64,000 nt of DNA from a virus: IMG/VR virus record IMGVR_UViG_3300036985_001509, positions 27,447 through 91,446 of that record. One strand, written 5' to 3'. Each line of letters opens with the position of its first letter. The first letter of the stretch is position 1. Below, in pieces: positions 15,181-30,243 of the stretch. The notes under the pieces are model-generated. The model was not told where the DNA came from and did not search any database. It worked only from the letters and a program-made list of their open reading frames with translations. Made by a program: the position numbers and the translations under genes.

Positions 15181-15447
15181 TTATCTAAATTTTAGAATTT
15201 TAACTCTGCTGGCAATCATGTTTACACTGAATGCAGCGTTATAATCGGGATTGCAATACTTATAAACAAGAATCCTCCTGTAGTTCAGAAGGTCCAACAT
15301 TGTTCCACCAGGAACAGGTTGGTTCAAAATAAATACAACATTGTTGTATAAATTGTTAGCCAGGTCAGCTAGTCTGCAATCTATCTCAGCAATAAGTGCT
15401 GGGATACTAGCGCACTCTGGACAATTTGTAAGCCTGGGTGATAACAT
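15181..15447 (-). CDS. Small conserved virion-operon protein, unknown
   Basis: The 88-residue product starts with a CPEC pair and continues with a helical region, then an IASRVKILKFR tail. It overlaps the upstream zinc-ribbon gene by 41 bases and abuts the fibre gene. No function recognised. Confidence 0.6.
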   Translation of the reverse strand: MLSPRLTNCPECASIPALIAEIDCRLADLANNLYNNVVFILNQPVPGGTMLDLLNYRRILVYKYCNPDYNAAFSVNMIASRVKILKFR

Positions 15448-19292: not shown

Positions 19293-20846
19293 TTAGAACT
19301 GCGGGATTTCTTCAATCAACACTGTACGAGACAGGTCTTCGATGAATACATCACAACGGTCCTTCATCCAGATTTCATATCCTGGGAATTTGTTCGCAGA
19401 GCTCATACCCTGAGACTTAGCAAAGCCTAAGTGATGGCGAGTTCCATCGATATATCCCCAAGTCATAGAAGGTGCACCCTTCATACGAACTTCACGGATG
19501 TTATTAACCATAGAACCATCAGACATCGGAGATACGTCAAACACCATGAATACAGGGGTAGACTTCTTGTTCTGTCCGAATTCCAGGTTAGATTGAGGCA
19601 GGTCAAGTTCTTTCAGGTGAATCAGTTCAACACGACCAGTCTCACGAGTTACCATTGCATCGAATGCAAAGTTGTAAGTGATGTGTTGTCCTTCGCCTTG
19701 CAGGTAACGGTTTCCGCTATCAGCCATGAAGGTCAGACCGCTGTTCAAAGCGTCAGTCTTCAAAGCTTGTTGGAACACGTCAAAACCTGCTTCGTTTGTA
19801 TACATTTTGACACGACGGTCTTTAACATCCACACGACGGTAGAACAGGTCACCAAACACAGCACGGATCAAGTTCGCAGTGAACTCACCACGGTTGTACT
19901 GTACGAGGTTACCGTTGTTACGCATACGATGGTAAACACCAGCAGATGTACGCTTCAGTTCTTGCTTGCTACCGTTAGTCTTAACAGTACCAGGACGAGA
20001 CCAAATCATACGCTTAACTTTCAACTCAAGCATAGACTTACGCATCCAGAACTCAATAAATGGCTCCCACTTAACATCATTACGAGTCAAGGGAAGTTGG
20101 TTACGACGCTGAGGTGCATATACAAGGATATCCAAAGGACGTCCTGCAGAGTCACGCATCATTTTGTCATCAGCCCACTCAGTGATCTTGTGCTCGAAAC
20201 CATATGCAGAACCCAAAGATTCAAACATAGTGATTTGCTCACCCAAACGGGGAAGACCAAGCAGATCCTGATCGAATTCACCGATTGCAGCATCTACCAG
20301 CTCAAGCTCAATACCCACTTGCAAGAATGTAGAACTTACAAAATCTACAGTGGGGTTGTCAGTCACAAGTGTGAAACTGTACAAGAATCCCATGTTCCAA
20401 GGAATAGGGTCCTTGATAACATAGAAGCGAGGACCATACTGACGGCTACCAACAGAAACGATTGCGTTCTTAGAGAACTCGTTTGTGTCAAGCACCAATT
20501 GGAACTCTTGACCATCGATACCAGGCTTGCTCAACTCGAGAGTGGAGTTAGGTACGTCGATAATTTTAGGGAATTTGTAGGGAACAGCTACTTGCCATTT
20601 CCAAGCATCGCTATTATTATCAATGTAATAAGGCGTGCTTTTGTTGATCATGTCGAGGAAGTCATTGCTATACAGAGAGCTCTGCGTGTAGAGACTGATG
20701 ATCTTCTTGTCGTAATCAGCAGGCTCGGTTGAGTGAAAGCTCTCCAGGTGGTTAGCGTCAGTTAGCTTACCTACAGCACGCTTGTCCATAGAAGCGACAC
20801 GAGCATACGTGAAGCCAGTTAGACCTGGGATTGTTTGAATTGCCAT
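19293..20846 (-). CDS. Major capsid protein, crAss-like
   Basis: The 517-residue protein has the length and gene neighbourhood (portal, scaffold, capsid) of the HK97-fold capsid proteins of crAss-like phages. It shows no transmembrane or enzymatic motif; a mid-region with WMRKSMLELKVKR and WSRPGTVK, and a C-terminal region with FPGYEIWMKDRCD, are compatible with that family (by recall, not alignment). Arg codons are mostly CGT, unlike the AGA/AGG-rich neighbours, consistent with very high expression. A 5' space of only 28 bases separates it from the scaffold gene, and hairpins plus a tRNA-like element follow. Confidence 0.85.
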   Translation of the reverse strand: MAIQTIPGLTGFTYARVASMDKRAVGKLTDANHLESFHSTEPADYDKKIISLYTQSSLYSNDFLDMINKSTPYYIDNNSDAWKWQVAVPYKFPKIIDVPNSTLELSKPGIDGQEFQLVLDTNEFSKNAIVSVGSRQYGPRFYVIKDPIPWNMGFLYSFTLVTDNPTVDFVSSTFLQVGIELELVDAAIGEFDQDLLGLPRLGEQITMFESLGSAYGFEHKITEWADDKMMRDSAGRPLDILVYAPQRRNQLPLTRNDVKWEPFIEFWMRKSMLELKVKRMIWSRPGTVKTNGSKQELKRTSAGVYHRMRNNGNLVQYNRGEFTANLIRAVFGDLFYRRVDVKDRRVKMYTNEAGFDVFQQALKTDALNSGLTFMADSGNRYLQGEGQHITYNFAFDAMVTRETGRVELIHLKELDLPQSNLEFGQNKKSTPVFMVFDVSPMSDGSMVNNIREVRMKGAPSMTWGYIDGTRHHLGFAKSQGMSSANKFPGYEIWMKDRCDVFIEDLSRTVLIEEIPQF

Positions 20847-22759: not shown

Positions 22760-25353
22760 TATTCTTTCTTAGGTTTTTTAGCTCTACCTTTTGCGTTCTC
22801 TTTAGCTATGGCCAAGTCATTTCTCTGGTTCTCACGATCTACCTTAAGTTTCTCTCTTTCAAGAGATATCTTCTCAGCGGCCAGTCTGTTCTTGGTGCTA
22901 ATGTCTGCCATCTTCATCTGATAGTCCTTAGCCGTTCTGTCTTGCTCTGCACTTATCTTACTGATTTCCAACACATCAGGAACTCCTGACTCATCTACAT
23001 CAGAGAGTCCCATGCCCATAGACTTGGCTTCAGCAGCAATCAGTGCCACCTCTTTCTTGTTTATGCGGTCAAGCTCGTTCTGGTAGTTTTCATTAGCAAT
23101 ATCCTGCTCCTTCTGCATCTGAGCCTGTTGCATTTGAGCTTGAGCAATTTGACTCTGCTGTTCAACCTGCTGCTGTTGCATGTCAAGTTTCTGCTGCTCC
23201 ATTTTCTGCTGTCTGTCACGCAAGTCTTTAAACACCTTCTTCATTTCTCTCATAGACTTGGTGCTGTACAGCTCAATTACGTCATACAGAGATCCACCAT
23301 TCTGCATCAAAGGTTGTGCCAGCTGACGAAGCTCATTGAACATCTGTGTATCCTCAGGACGATTTGTCAAGAATACCTTCAGGTCACGGAACTTAAGATC
23401 AGAACCGTTCACTGATACAAAAGCGCTCTCACCCTCGCTAGTGATATAGCTGAGAGTGGACTGGGGCTTCTTGCTTTCTACATACAGGGCAGCATCAATG
23501 ATGGCCTGGTAGAGTTGACCCATAACATACTCATGGGCTATGAACAGGGGCTCTGTTTGAGAATAAGATTGTTGTACGGCTGTGTTTACACCTGTAGCAG
23601 ATTCGCTAGATGTAATAGATCCCATACGTTGTCTACTCATCCCCACGAGTTCCCAACATTCGCTCTTTAACTGTTGGGCTAGGGTATAACGAGATTGGAT
23701 TTCCTGTGTACGTGTAAGGTCAATATCTCTAAACTGGTTGAATGAGCTTGGGCTCTTCAGGTTTTCAGGGCTGTCGTCAATAAAGACAACACCTCTGTTT
23801 CTTGCTTCTAATTCCCAAATGTCAAGAGCATCCTGAGCATCACCATCCTTAGGAACAGGAATATGTCTGATGGATGTTAAATACACCTTACCCACTTCCT
23901 TCTCCAGCAGCTTATAGAGCTGGTTCATACATACATTATACAACACCTGGAAAGGCTTCATTAAATCCACCAGAGACTTAGCTTCTGTGTTCTTCACCTC
24001 AAAGGTGATACCAATAAGAGGGCAGTAGTTGAGGAGCTTGAAAGGTTTAACGTGGTAGATATCTGGACCAATCTTGGTGCCCTGATACCACTGGTTAATC
24101 CAGCCCCATTCCAAACTTTGCTGTGTAGGAATGGTGCCGCTCTTGTAGTTTTCATCTACCAGAACTGACTGTTCGTTACCCATCTCGTCTACATAGATGA
24201 GTTTACCAATCTTCTTCTTGCTCAACCAGTAACCTCTAACAACAACATACTTATATCCAAAGGATGATACGTTGGAGGTGAGTCCCAAGAAATCCTTGAG
24301 ACCATCATTGTTCTCCTTCATTTCACTCTCGATAATCATACGGGTTTGAAGGACCAGTGGATCAAATGTATCATAGGTAACTGAGTCAATACCAGGAACA
24401 GCGTTGGGGTTACCCAGATTTGATTCACGGACGTTAATTAGTCCATAGTCTTGCAGAGAACTTCTTAGATGGTCTATTTCTTCTTTAGTAAGATCAGGAA
24501 TGCTTTCAATGATCTCTGAAAGCTCCATAACTTGAACAGTACCTGCAGCATACGCACCTTGAGCTCGCCCTGTAGGGTCAGAGATATATTTTCTATCAGG
24601 CGTTGTAAGGAACCATGTGTTTTTCGGGTTAGCCACCTCGATATTGAATCCCAGCTTAGAATTGTCCTCATAGATGTGATAGAATTCTCTTCCAGAAATA
24701 AGCATGTCTCTAAACGCGTCCTCACTTTTCTCCTTCAGGTTGAACTCAGCCTTCTGGCAAGTGAGCACATGATTGGCCCATTTCTCAGCTACAGAAGTGT
24801 AGCTATCTAGGACATCCTGTACTTCCTCCATTGTCATCTGTTGAACTTCCTCTTCAGAAAGCTCCTCACCATTCATAGCAGCGTTTGCCAATATCTGCTG
24901 TCTAGCTCTACCCAGAACATATTGTTGAAGTATATCTGTCTTAAACTCCAGCTCTTCAGACTTACTATCATCATCAAACGCCTTCACCCTGAATGTATCA
25001 GGGCGTTTACTAATCTCACCCACCAGCTCGTTTACAGGAGTGGTGATGATGGAATACATCTTAACATACGCAGGCAATTGTAGATCGGCTGTAAGCACAT
25101 CTGTAAAACTTCTCACCTGAGGCTCCTGATAGAAATCTTCCATCCTCAGGATGCCTTTCATTAGGTCGTAGTTTTTGACAAATGTATCTCGGTTCTTTAC
25201 ATACTCAGCATAAGCCTTGTTTGCAAAGTAGTCCATAGTGTTCTTAATCCAGCTCTCATCTTGCTTCTCCTTATCAGTCTTGAACTGATCAGGGAAGATG
25301 TTAAGATAGGCATACCTAATGGTAGCATCTTTCGTATATCTAATAATTGCCAT
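22759..25353 (-). CDS. Portal protein, crAss-like
   Basis: The 864-residue protein directly follows the large terminase gene with a one-base overlap, and precedes scaffold and capsid genes, as portals do. The C-terminal 200 residues are a long Gln/Lys/Glu-rich helix (RDRQQKMEQQKLDMQQQQ) expected of a portal barrel or internal crown, and the body contains mixed alpha/beta sequence of the right size for crAss-like portals. A dodecameric DNA channel at the capsid vertex is the family role. Identification is by size, composition and order. Confidence 0.85.
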   Translation of the reverse strand: MAIIRYTKDATIRYAYLNIFPDQFKTDKEKQDESWIKNTMDYFANKAYAEYVKNRDTFVKNYDLMKGILRMEDFYQEPQVRSFTDVLTADLQLPAYVKMYSIITTPVNELVGEISKRPDTFRVKAFDDDSKSEELEFKTDILQQYVLGRARQQILANAAMNGEELSEEEVQQMTMEEVQDVLDSYTSVAEKWANHVLTCQKAEFNLKEKSEDAFRDMLISGREFYHIYEDNSKLGFNIEVANPKNTWFLTTPDRKYISDPTGRAQGAYAAGTVQVMELSEIIESIPDLTKEEIDHLRSSLQDYGLINVRESNLGNPNAVPGIDSVTYDTFDPLVLQTRMIIESEMKENNDGLKDFLGLTSNVSSFGYKYVVVRGYWLSKKKIGKLIYVDEMGNEQSVLVDENYKSGTIPTQQSLEWGWINQWYQGTKIGPDIYHVKPFKLLNYCPLIGITFEVKNTEAKSLVDLMKPFQVLYNVCMNQLYKLLEKEVGKVYLTSIRHIPVPKDGDAQDALDIWELEARNRGVVFIDDSPENLKSPSSFNQFRDIDLTRTQEIQSRYTLAQQLKSECWELVGMSRQRMGSITSSESATGVNTAVQQSYSQTEPLFIAHEYVMGQLYQAIIDAALYVESKKPQSTLSYITSEGESAFVSVNGSDLKFRDLKVFLTNRPEDTQMFNELRQLAQPLMQNGGSLYDVIELYSTKSMREMKKVFKDLRDRQQKMEQQKLDMQQQQVEQQSQIAQAQMQQAQMQKEQDIANENYQNELDRINKKEVALIAAEAKSMGMGLSDVDESGVPDVLEISKISAEQDRTAKDYQMKMADISTKNRLAAEKISLEREKLKVDRENQRNDLAIAKENAKGRAKKPKKE

Positions 25354-27377
25354 TATGTAAACAATTTACTTTTTTTCCTTGGGAATAGTCCTCTTGATTC
25401 TGTAAATAGCTGGTTTTTCTTGTTTGGTCTAAAGAATGCTTTTAGTCTGTCATCTCCTGAACCTCCCACCTTTCCAAGTATTGGGTCCATTTTAAGAGCC
25501 TGAGCTATTGCTAACTCTGCTGCTACAATACGGTCAAAGTTACCTTGATCGTTATACTGAATAATCTCTTCCAGTAGAACAGGATCAAATATCTTTGACA
25601 CACCCAGTACCTCTTTAATGATATCACCATCCTCGTTCTTTTCCTGATATACAACAGCCTCCATATACTTCTTGAGACAGTTGTGCAGATAGTCTCTTAT
25701 CTTATCTGCTGAGCGGTGCACCCCATACTCACGTTTAACGGTGGTACCAGGCACCACTTCCTTCAACCATTCAGGTTGCTTCTCGAGGTAGTGTGCATCT
25801 CCTTTAGCTTTCATGTATTCTATGAAGGAGATGTCATCATTTTCACAGAGCGTACGTGCATTATAATACTTAATGAGAAGACGAGCTTGTTCTTCCCAGG
25901 TTTCTTTCTTCTCAGGCCTTGCACAATACGAAGCTACGAACATATCCTGGTACTTCTCACCAGTTATGTCGTGCATTCTCTTATAAATATATACAGACCC
26001 TAAGGATGTAGAATAGGCAGCTTGCCCCTGTCTGTAAGGGTCAACTCCTGCTACATAGAGTCCGTACGGAGGGTTTTCCAGAGGAAACTCATATATCACT
26101 ACAGGAGCATCCTTCAGATCCGTATTCTTTAGGGGGAAGTTAGTGATGGGTTGTTTATCTGTAAACTCATGACTAATCTTCTCTCCATCATGGAACAGAA
26201 TAACAGGTGTGCCTGTACGTTCCTGATTAATAAGCCTAGCTTTCTGTCGCTTGGCTCCCTCAATATCAAATATGTTTGTGTCCTCGTTCAGGAAGATATC
26301 ATCCACTTCCATGGGATAGTACATCTTCTCTTTTAGGTAGGCCACTCTATCTCCAGCCTTCTTAAGGCGTTCTAGATTACCTTCTGTAATTTGTTTAGCT
26401 TTCTCCTCATTACTCACCAACATCTTAACGTCATGACTATCGCTTCCTTCAGGCTCTCCCAGAAATGCACCCAGCGTGCTCTCTTCCTTAGCCTCCATTC
26501 GATACTTATACGAAATAAACAAGCCATGAATACGTTTCTCATCCTTTTCATTGTTGTAGGTTAAGAAGTTGAAATTATCTACATCAAACATCAGGGACTT
26601 GGCGTCCATGAATCGCTTCATGTCACCACCAGTACCTGTAAGAATGGGAGAACAACCCCATCCATAAGGGGTTGTGAAACCTGGTACAGCAGCCTGGAAA
26701 CCTCTAAGGAAATTACCTTTACCAATCTCATCGATAATTAGTTTACGTGGTTTTGTACCAGCAATTGCTTCCTCATTGTTACCCTCGTCAAGGTTACGAA
26801 TGAGTATCTGGGAGAACGGTATACGCTCTCCTGATTTGGTCTTAATACCTAGGGTGACTTGGTTTTTCCAGTTGTCCTCAACTCTCTGCCATCTCCATGC
26901 TTCAGGTAGGAAGTTCAGGCCCTTGTCCAGCTTATCTGTGATCAGCTTTATATCGGGGGCATTCAACCCAGCGATCACATTCTGGGAATTCTCATCAAAT
27001 GTAGCGCCCCACCCTATGTAAGAAGCCTCTAAAACAGACTTAGCGAAACGTCGTATACCTAGTATCACCAAGCCCTTTTTATCTTGTTGTGCTCTATCTA
27101 TCTCATTGGTCACTATCCACTCATTGTCACGCAGGAGAGGATTGGCATATTTCTGGGAGATTCTCCCACGCTCATCTATCACATCCACCTCTGTGTGCCA
27201 AACATTTAGATGCCAGTAGAGAAACGGGTTGATATACACCCCGCCCATCATAGCACCGTTTAAGCATATGTCTCTGTGGAAGTCAAAGAAAGGCTTAAAC
27301 TCTGCAGACTCACGGTCAGGCAGACGCCCCTGGTTGATAAACCAGTCTTTGTAATCTATGCTTTGTATGTTGATCAT
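25353..27377 (-). CDS. terL: Terminase large subunit
   Basis: This 674-residue ATPase-nuclease packages DNA into the prohead. A Walker A variant GIRRFAKS lies at residues 107-114, Walker B LIIDEIG at 213-219 with catalytic E217, and the RNase H-like nuclease domain begins with VAGVDPYRQG near residue 440 and includes a late Asp in FDRIVAAELA near 625. Length matches tailed-phage large terminases, with a somewhat extended N-terminus. It overlaps the portal and the preceding 111-residue gene by one base each. Confidence 0.93.
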   Translation of the reverse strand: MINIQSIDYKDWFINQGRLPDRESAEFKPFFDFHRDICLNGAMMGGVYINPFLYWHLNVWHTEVDVIDERGRISQKYANPLLRDNEWIVTNEIDRAQQDKKGLVILGIRRFAKSVLEASYIGWGATFDENSQNVIAGLNAPDIKLITDKLDKGLNFLPEAWRWQRVEDNWKNQVTLGIKTKSGERIPFSQILIRNLDEGNNEEAIAGTKPRKLIIDEIGKGNFLRGFQAAVPGFTTPYGWGCSPILTGTGGDMKRFMDAKSLMFDVDNFNFLTYNNEKDEKRIHGLFISYKYRMEAKEESTLGAFLGEPEGSDSHDVKMLVSNEEKAKQITEGNLERLKKAGDRVAYLKEKMYYPMEVDDIFLNEDTNIFDIEGAKRQKARLINQERTGTPVILFHDGEKISHEFTDKQPITNFPLKNTDLKDAPVVIYEFPLENPPYGLYVAGVDPYRQGQAAYSTSLGSVYIYKRMHDITGEKYQDMFVASYCARPEKKETWEEQARLLIKYYNARTLCENDDISFIEYMKAKGDAHYLEKQPEWLKEVVPGTTVKREYGVHRSADKIRDYLHNCLKKYMEAVVYQEKNEDGDIIKEVLGVSKIFDPVLLEEIIQYNDQGNFDRIVAAELAIAQALKMDPILGKVGGSGDDRLKAFFRPNKKNQLFTESRGLFPRKKSKLFT

Positions 27378-28695: not shown

Positions 28696-29074
28696 ATATC
28701 TTTGGTTTTAAGTCTCTTATCCCGTCAAGGGCTATTTGAAGCTTCAGGGCTGCCGACTTCCTTTTGGCTTCTGGCAGCGTTTCGTCATTTGCCCATTTCT
28801 CAAACAAGGCTTTCTGACTCAGAAACTTCTCCATCGTCTTGTGCGCCTTCTTCTCATTAAAAAACAACTTCCCAAATCCACTGATTTCCAAGCTTTTATG
28901 CTGTGTCAGCGCCTCGTTGGCGCTTTGGAACTGGTGGTTAATAATGGTCTCCAGTGTCTTCTCGCTCATCCTCATCTTGACTGCCATCTTTCTGATGATC
29001 CAGTCCTTGACGGATAGGCTCATTGGCTTATTATCCGTGAACAAGTCTGATTTCAAGGGTGATGTCATGGTCAA
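28607..29074 (-). CDS. HU/IHF-family DNA-binding protein
   Basis: Residues 20-85 follow the HU/IHF pattern: an SVKDWIIRKMAVKMRMSEKTLETIINHQF helical region (quoted in part: TLETIINHQFQSANEAL) and then EISGFGKLFFNEKKAHK, the entry to the DNA-embracing beta arm. The C-terminal 60 residues are extra and charged. IHF-like subunits are a hallmark of crAss-like virion operons. It overlaps the upstream HTH gene by 44 bases and the downstream zinc-ribbon gene by 89 bases. Confidence 0.75.
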   Translation of the reverse strand: MTMTSPLKSDLFTDNKPMSLSVKDWIIRKMAVKMRMSEKTLETIINHQFQSANEALTQHKSLEISGFGKLFFNEKKAHKTMEKFLSQKALFEKWANDETLPEAKRKSAALKLQIALDGIRDLKPKIYESNVSNLRGVEEQPPASQRAEEDDKGYE

Positions 29075-29381
29075 AGTTTAACAGGATTTGAGGGTTCACC
29101 TTCACCTTTGTCCCATCCTTCACCAGCACCCCTATCTTCTTGAGCCTAGAAATGATGTTATTTATGGAGGCATTGGTGGTGCCATATCTCTCACAGAAAT
29201 CCTTACGTATGTTAGCATAAGAGATGTTACCCCTTACAGCAGCAAAAGCCAGAAGTTGTATTTCTCTCTGTGTTAGCTTCAAATCGTTCACAGCAGACAG
29301 AATAGTGTAATACCTCTCCGCTAAGAGTGTACTATCCACCTCTTGTTTCTTCAGCTTCTGTAAGACGATTGTGGCTTTCAT
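29031..29381 (-). CDS. HTH-type regulator, first gene of the leftward operon
   Basis: This 116-residue protein contains LTQREIQLLAFAAVRG and YANIRKDFCERYGTTNASINNIISRLKKIGVL (quoted in part), a winged-helix or MarR-like arrangement with the recognition helix near TTNASINNIISR. It is the first gene after the perfect host-type promoter at 29396-29427, so it may control the switch to virion gene expression (inference). The predicted leader is very short, about 7 bases. Confidence 0.65.
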   Translation of the reverse strand: MKATIVLQKLKKQEVDSTLLAERYYTILSAVNDLKLTQREIQLLAFAAVRGNISYANIRKDFCERYGTTNASINNIISRLKKIGVLVKDGTKVKVNPQILLNFDHDITLEIRLVHG

Positions 29382-29395
29382 AAATTTAGTTAGTA

Positions 29396-29427
29396 CAAAG
29401 ATAAGGGGTTATTCTAACATATTCAAA
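29396..29427 (-). promoter_or_regulatory. Perfect Bacteroidota-type promoter of the leftward virion operon
   Basis: On the minus strand TTTG (plus 29424-29427), 20 bases, then TATCTTTG (plus 29396-29403), an exact match to TTTG-N20-TAnnTTTG. The start codon at 29381 follows 15 bases later, implying a nearly leaderless transcript. Confidence 0.85.
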
Positions 29428-29780
29428 CACAATCTTTTATGCTATAGCTATATTATGTCTTATTTCCAACTTAATCCCGTAAATAGGCTTTCTATCTACA
29501 GGGTGAATAGATCCCATAACCCACCCACCACCCCAAAGCTACAACATCCTTAGGATAGATTCCAAATTTTTTTTCGTAAACCCCCACCCTTACTTTTTGC
29601 CCCCTAGGGTGAGCCCCTAGTTTGACCATCCCCCCTGGTTTGTTCCACGTGAAAAAACCCCCCTATCCGTGAGGGGACGGGTTACTCCACACCAAGGACC
29701 CAGGGGCAGGATGCGCGGTGGGAGCCACCCCCCGTGCTTCGTTAACAAGGAGTCACCTTGTAAAAAACTGTCGAAAAATC
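29428..29780. other. Divergent control region with C-rich structured leader
   Basis: This 353-base stretch has no convincing gene. It holds an AAATTTTTTTT tract at 29564-29574, direct repeats CCCCTAG at 29601-29607 and 29614-29620, many C runs on the plus strand, a parS-like site at 29641-29656, and a hairpin ACAAGG/CCTTGT at 29745-29761 that hides an AAGGAG. Possible rightward promoters are imperfect: TTTG 29596-29599 with TAGTTTG 29618-29624, or TTTG 29639-29642 with TATCCGTG 29664-29671. It could also be a replication origin (inference). Confidence 0.6.
29641..29656. promoter_or_regulatory. parS-like ParB-binding site
   Basis: TGTTCCACGTGAAAAA differs from the canonical parS TGTTCCACGTGAAACA at one of 16 positions. 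No parB gene is seen in the window, so a host ParB or a gene outside the window would have to bind it. Confidence 0.5.
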
Positions 29781-30200
29781 ATGGCACAAGAACTGCGTAT
29801 CAAATCAGGCGTATGGTCAGCGAAAGGCAACTTCACAGCCAAAACTGCGTACGGCAAAACTTTCTTCATCCACAAGAACACCATGGCAGAGTTGGGCTAC
29901 GAGCCTAATGCTGAGGTTAAGTACCCATTTTATGCAGTGGTAGACACCACCATGATCGGTCAGCTTGACCAGAATGGCGATCCTCTAATGGGAGAAGATG
30001 GCAAGCCCGTACAGGTTGCTCGTGAGAGCGCATTGAGCGTGTTCGCCACACTGGAAGAGTTGCAGGCTTGCGCAATCGAAGAGCGTACCATCGGTGCGGA
30101 CATCGAGATTGCTGTTCAGCAGCACGTTCGCAGCAAGGTTAGCACCAGCGGTCTGAGCGAGTCTGCTGTCAACAGCATTCTTGCAAGCTCACTCGTGTAA
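29781..30200 (+). CDS. First rightward gene, probably strongly expressed, unknown (139 aa)
   Basis: The start ATG 29781 (product begins MAQELRIKSG) is preferred over earlier in-frame GTG starts in the structured leader. The protein has beta-rich segments with FIHKNTMAELGYEPN and a VDTTMIGQLDQNGDP loop, ending in a Ser-rich helical region. Its codons are more GC-rich than those of neighbouring early genes, similar to the capsid gene, suggesting abundant product. A terminator follows directly. No family recognised; an early DNA-binding or host-takeover role would be guesswork. Confidence 0.75.
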   Translation: MAQELRIKSGVWSAKGNFTAKTAYGKTFFIHKNTMAELGYEPNAEVKYPFYAVVDTTMIGQLDQNGDPLMGEDGKPVQVARESALSVFATLEELQACAIEERTIGADIEIAVQQHVRSKVSTSGLSESAVNSILASSLV

Positions 30201-30208
30201 GATTATTC

Positions 30209-30243
30209 GGAAGTGTTCTCAATCAGGGAACACTTCCTTTTAT
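30209..30243 (+). terminator. Intrinsic terminator after the first rightward gene
   Basis: Perfect 10-bp stem (30209-30218 with 30228-30237), 9-base loop, then TTTTATA. Confidence 0.85.

Follow-up and report, generated by a model that had tools for sequence, protein, structure and literature searches.

A chromosomal-type parS site in the divergent control region of a crAss-like phage and its possible use of the host segregation system

Bacterial chromosomes are segregated by ParABS systems, which act through the 16-bp palindrome parS, and the presence of such a site in a phage raises the question of which proteins read it and to what end. The stretch analyzed here, referred to as the window, comprises 64,000 nucleotides, bases 27447–91446 of the 91,446-base IMG/VR virus record IMGVR_UViG_3300036985_001509. 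An earlier note on this DNA had pointed to a 16-mer close to parS in the control region between two transcription modules, and the match was found as described:

29641–29656, plus strand: parS-like site TGTTCCACGTGAAAAA, 15 of 16 bases identical to TGTTCCACGTGAAACA

The left half-site, GTTCCAC, is perfect, while the right half-site carries a C-to-A change at position 15. Within three mismatches of parS the window contains only one further candidate, a weak palindrome at 15301–15316, and TGTTCCACGTGAAAMA has a single exact match in the whole record, which is the window site. Matches with at most one mismatch are expected 0.0016 times per window, and 9e-6 times in the C-rich intergenic region when the base composition of that region is used. 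Sixty third-order Markov sequences contained no match closer than two mismatches, so that the shuffled-sequence scan proposed in the earlier note speaks against a chance near-match.

Whether the site is kept in related phages was followed through the terminase gene, which served to find and align relatives:

25353–27377, minus strand: terminase large subunit (phrog_6681)

A set of 80 related loci was fetched by terminase and scanned, and 109 further non-redundant loci were added; the loci are metagenomic contigs, many of them cut near the divergent region. The terminases of Leptolyngbya phage Lbo-JY46 and Cellulophaga phage phi17:2, when used as scan queries, returned almost no relatives. Palindromes of the NGTTYCACGTGRAACN family recur at a distance of 2.07–3.3 kb upstream of the start of the terminase gene, in most cases 2.26–2.4 kb. 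In 3.16 Mb of related loci GTTNCACGTGNAAC occurs 56 times, against a mean of 0.15 and a maximum of 18 occurrences for the 1,259 palindromes made by all other permutations of the half-site; some of the 56 are coding copies that related contigs inherited, so that the count does not stand for 56 independent events. The copies in the divergent region belong to 30 loci and lie in 12 unrelated flank contexts, with a flank identity across contexts of 0.54 compared with a shuffled baseline of 0.55. The site is thus conserved beyond chance and independently of its flanks, as an isolated island, and the comparison with related phages suggested in the earlier note comes out in its favor.

The intergenic cores, mostly NGTTYCACGTGRAACN, vary at positions 1, 5 and 12 and less often at 2, 15 and 16, all of which are degenerate in bacterial parS. 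Since these cores were found by pattern, it is the permuted-palindrome count that provides the unbiased test. Bacterial parS has been reported as TGTTNCACGTGAAACA, with variants including AGTTTCACGTGAAACT and TGTTCCACGTGGAACG (PMC7022226). The last of these is present verbatim in two relatives (L065 and L070), and several phage cores are identical to bacterial parS sequences or parS consensus forms from the literature (PMC7022226). Relative to the consensus NGTTNCACGTGNAACN the window copy matches at 15 of 16 positions and the copies of relatives at up to 16. Among 22 whole records scanned with the pattern, 15 contain one site, one contains two and six contain none, while a reversed-pattern control gave zero sites. 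In records outside the clade the site is largely absent.

No genes for reading such a site were detected in these phages. The HTH_ParB domain is present in none of 24 records, neither an integrase nor a CbiA-type ParA domain in any of 10, and no ParB domain, including ParB_N (PF02195), in the window's own 91,446-base record; the earlier note had seen no parB in the window, and the rest of the genome agrees. By the absence of a ParB with HTH_ParB in the 24 records and of a ParA in the 10, the phages lack a self-contained ParABS system of their own, and the proteins acting on the site, if it works, would be supplied by the host. Four genomes (G007, G016, G019 and G020) encode proteins of ~250–270 amino acids with a weak, sub-threshold ParB_N match and no detected HTH_ParB, for example G020:C1:75460-75669; the parS-like site is absent in three of these four.

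In some relatives that lack the intergenic copy, parS lies in coding DNA instead. In the Band_7 gene the codons GGG TTY CAC GTG AAA CTN (GFHVKL) are retained across five lineages with 73–87% DNA identity between them. Thirteen of 14 bases of this copy are invariant, a level that other in-frame windows equal but do not exceed, and the single base that varies falls on a parS-degenerate position; of the third positions of the gene 23% are invariant. Other lineages encode GFHWRI, GIHFKI or GFHPKI at the same spot, and a divergent version of Band_7 contains GATGTTTCACGTGGAA. A perfect 16/16 parS lies inside an unrelated 406-amino-acid open reading frame in another genome (G013). Copies at +4.74 kb, downstream of the portal gene, and at +7.75 kb were considered as extra intergenic sites and rejected, as both are coding; those at +7.75 kb carry little weight because conservation is as high in 7 of the 523 windows of that gene. 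The site thus recurs in one or another of these places. The intergenic and coding classes never occur together in the 105 loci compared (Fisher p 2e-5, uncorrected for relatedness).

The surroundings of the window copy comprise the following features:

29382–29780, no strand: divergent intergenic control region of 399 bp, with the structural module to the left and the replication module to the right
29031–29381, minus strand: first gene of the leftward structural module, a small winged-helix or helix-turn-helix (HTH)-like protein with weak, sub-threshold Pfam matches such as Phage_rep_O
29781–30200, plus strand: first gene of the rightward module, no function assigned, often swapped in relatives
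29534–29566, minus strand: distal leftward Bacteroidota-type promoter TTTG-N21-TAGCTTTG, kept in relatives, boundaries read from sequence
29396–29427, minus strand: proximal leftward Bacteroidota-type promoter TTTG-N20-TATCTTTG, directly before the HTH gene, kept in relatives, boundaries read from sequence

The site lies between the leftward HTH gene and the rightward gene, that is, between the two modules as had been noted, and the GC (guanine-cytosine) skew switches sign in this intergenic region. The HTH gene is kept beside the site in relatives, and the two leftward promoters, each consisting of TTTG, a spacer and TANNTTTG, recur in nearly all relatives with the intergenic site. This promoter pattern is typical of Bacteroidota. 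The distal promoter is ~75 bp from the site in the window, and the spacing ranges from 42 to ~170 bp in most relatives. The imperfect rightward promoter that the earlier note placed over the site was not recovered: no sigma-70 promoter overlaps it, where 2.3 would be expected by chance, and no rightward Bacteroidota-type promoter is found there. An Rfam search of the intergenic region gave no match.

A C-rich, hairpin-like inverted repeat at 29657–29678 abuts the right side of the parS-like site; it is terminator-like on the minus strand, where its T tail extends into the site. A strong terminator-like hairpin (12 pairs and a T tail) follows directly after the first rightward gene, at 30209–30237. 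Many of the contigs fetched by terminase stop ~1–4.5 kb upstream of it, close to the C-rich divergent region. In L074/G019 the site sits across contig ends from the terminase. These ends possibly reflect a genome end, a circular map or an assembly obstacle.

The terminase and portal proteins fall into head-and-packaging families of phages, and the terminase is homologous to those of cr50_1, phi17:2 and other crAss-like phages. It is 40% identical to that of Lbo-JY46 and 34% to that of phi17:2, and its identity to gut crAss phages is mostly 24–29% among the matches listed. Together with the divergent gene layout, these protein families and homologies assign the window to a crAss-like (Crassvirales-type) phage. 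Shine-Dalgarno-like motifs precede 5 of 58 genes, where chance alone would give 6.3, and the sequence before the genes is A-rich at positions −14 to −10. Bacteroidota-type promoters combined with genes devoid of Shine-Dalgarno sites point to a host among the Bacteroidota. A scan of genome collections for the host gave only one 7-kb contig, which is binned as Clostridiales and possibly mis-binned. ParABS and parS have been reported in gut bacteria including Bacteroides (PMC10197239).

On this evidence, all of it drawn from sequence, the 16-mer is very probably a host-type parS that would recruit host ParB. In the proposed mechanism a clamp of host ParB with cytidine triphosphate (CTP) would load at the phage-borne parS and slide onto the phage DNA, and ParB would couple this DNA to the ParA/SMC segregation and nucleoid system of the host. 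The benefit to the phage would be positioning and inheritance of its genome as a non-integrated episome, in a carrier or phage-plasmid state. For crAss phages, which persist with their hosts, a carrier state as an episome has been put forward (PMC11844821). The presence of parS in relatives that encode none of its reading machinery suggests that these phages are passengers of the host segregation system. Segregation and maintenance of an episomal genome is the most likely use of the site, although this is held tentatively. The explanation as a whole, from host-type parS and loading of host ParB to segregation coupling and inheritance of the episome, is slightly favored. It is conceivable, if short of an even prospect, that in a clade lacking partition genes a chromosomal parS is retained as the centromere of a hitchhiker, with host ParB, ParA and SMC segregating the episome and the site being repeatedly gained, lost and moved, even into coding sequence.

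Several observations weigh against this proposal. The window copy is itself imperfect, with one half-site damaged, and the six site-less whole records contain no good alternative site. The site is absent from crAss001, cr50_1 and several other crAss records, gut phages among them, and from Lbo-JY46, and the intergenic site requires 11–14 changes on the terminase tree. These losses and absences suggest that the site is dispensable or host-dependent. The avoidance between intergenic and coding copies is no longer significant in the 105 loci after correction for relatedness. To our knowledge, no lysogenic or episomal state has been described for this clade.

One alternative to a functional parS is a chance match: the motif is short, the region is C-rich, and some near-matches elsewhere may be coding coincidences, such as the VTRET codons in the gene at 19293–20846. 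The low expected frequency per window, the scarcity of permuted palindromes and the 12 distinct flank contexts refute it, and its probability is practically nil; the shuffled and Markov sequences lead to the same result. The 16-mer could instead be the operator of a phage regulator, for instance of the adjacent HTH protein, with only a coincidental likeness to parS. The HTH gene is indeed conserved beside the intergenic site, but it also remains in relatives that have lost the site or carry it elsewhere, the spacing varies, and the phage sites agree with parS in the six fixed half-site bases as well as in the degenerate positions, which makes an operator improbable. Variable promoter spacing, the missing rightward promoter and the coding copies fit a position-independent, centromere-like site better.

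Two further explanations accept a true parS and differ in its use. Host ParB might bind the site and spread from it, so that the divergent promoters are repressed or insulated and, for example, the structural genes are delayed. In most relatives the intergenic copy is 40–170 bp upstream of conserved leftward promoters, and ParB-type clamps can silence nearby genes, as described for KorB (PMC11790492) and for ParB of P. aeruginosa (PMC5521831). However, the spacing to the promoters is not fixed, and in other genomes the site falls within structural genes or lies at a distance of more than 10 kb, so that a mainly regulatory role appears unlikely. The earlier note had allowed for a regulator as well as for a host-type parS; a purely local role is weakened by this variation in placement, while a host-type parS, conserved in parB-less relatives, is strongly supported and the rightward-promoter overlap is not supported. 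Alternatively, the site could be a decoy that titrates ParB, or a loader of host SMC, which would disturb host segregation or organize lytic phage DNA instead of helping inheritance. Such a function would be position-independent and suits a virulent phage without lysogeny genes, and one site per genome becomes multi-copy upon replication. A decoy would nevertheless be expected to involve several sites per genome, yet most genomes have exactly one, and this use is regarded as quite doubtful. The preferred reading remains a host-type parS, most likely used for episome segregation.

A second phage group with host-type parS is indicated by the sequence of an unrelated phage contig, L125 (IMGVR_UViG_3300037518_000322, 116662 bases, G065), whose sole DNA match in the phage collection is a Streptomyces phage. 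It contains 24 exact GTTNCACGTGNAAC sites in two clusters, with zero sites in the reversed-pattern control. Many of them overlap gene starts, the proteins beginning with MFHVKH or MFHVEH, and the contig shows no clear ParB HTH domain, with one sub-threshold match. Literature searches, with most subscription papers and bioRxiv outside their coverage, returned no paper describing host-type parS in such phages. Persistence of crAss-like phages without integration is an open question in the literature (PMC11844821). With a host-type parS in a ParB-less phage, the borrowing of host chromosome segregation would become a simple, testable mechanism. If this is true, parasites can exploit chromosomal parS, which would also be a sequence tag for finding further hitchhiking phages.

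The closest comparison by phage type is Carjvirus communis, the prototypic crAssphage, for which a phage-plasmid lifestyle has been reported; both are crAss-like and episomal persistence has been proposed there (PMC11844821), whereas the records compared from that side, crAss001, cr50_1 and several other crAss records, do not have the site. With chromosomal parS of ParABS systems the phage site shares the 16-bp palindrome, the degenerate positions and the placement in intergenic or coding DNA, but it is located on phage genomes, usually as a single copy rather than a cluster near oriC, and the window copy is a 15/16 match. The phage-plasmids P1 and N15 encode their own ParA and ParB and use a plasmid-specific parS. 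Unlike them, the phages described here have a chromosomal-type site and no detected ParA or canonical ParB; like them, they have a genome with a centromere-like site that plausibly serves to maintain an episome.
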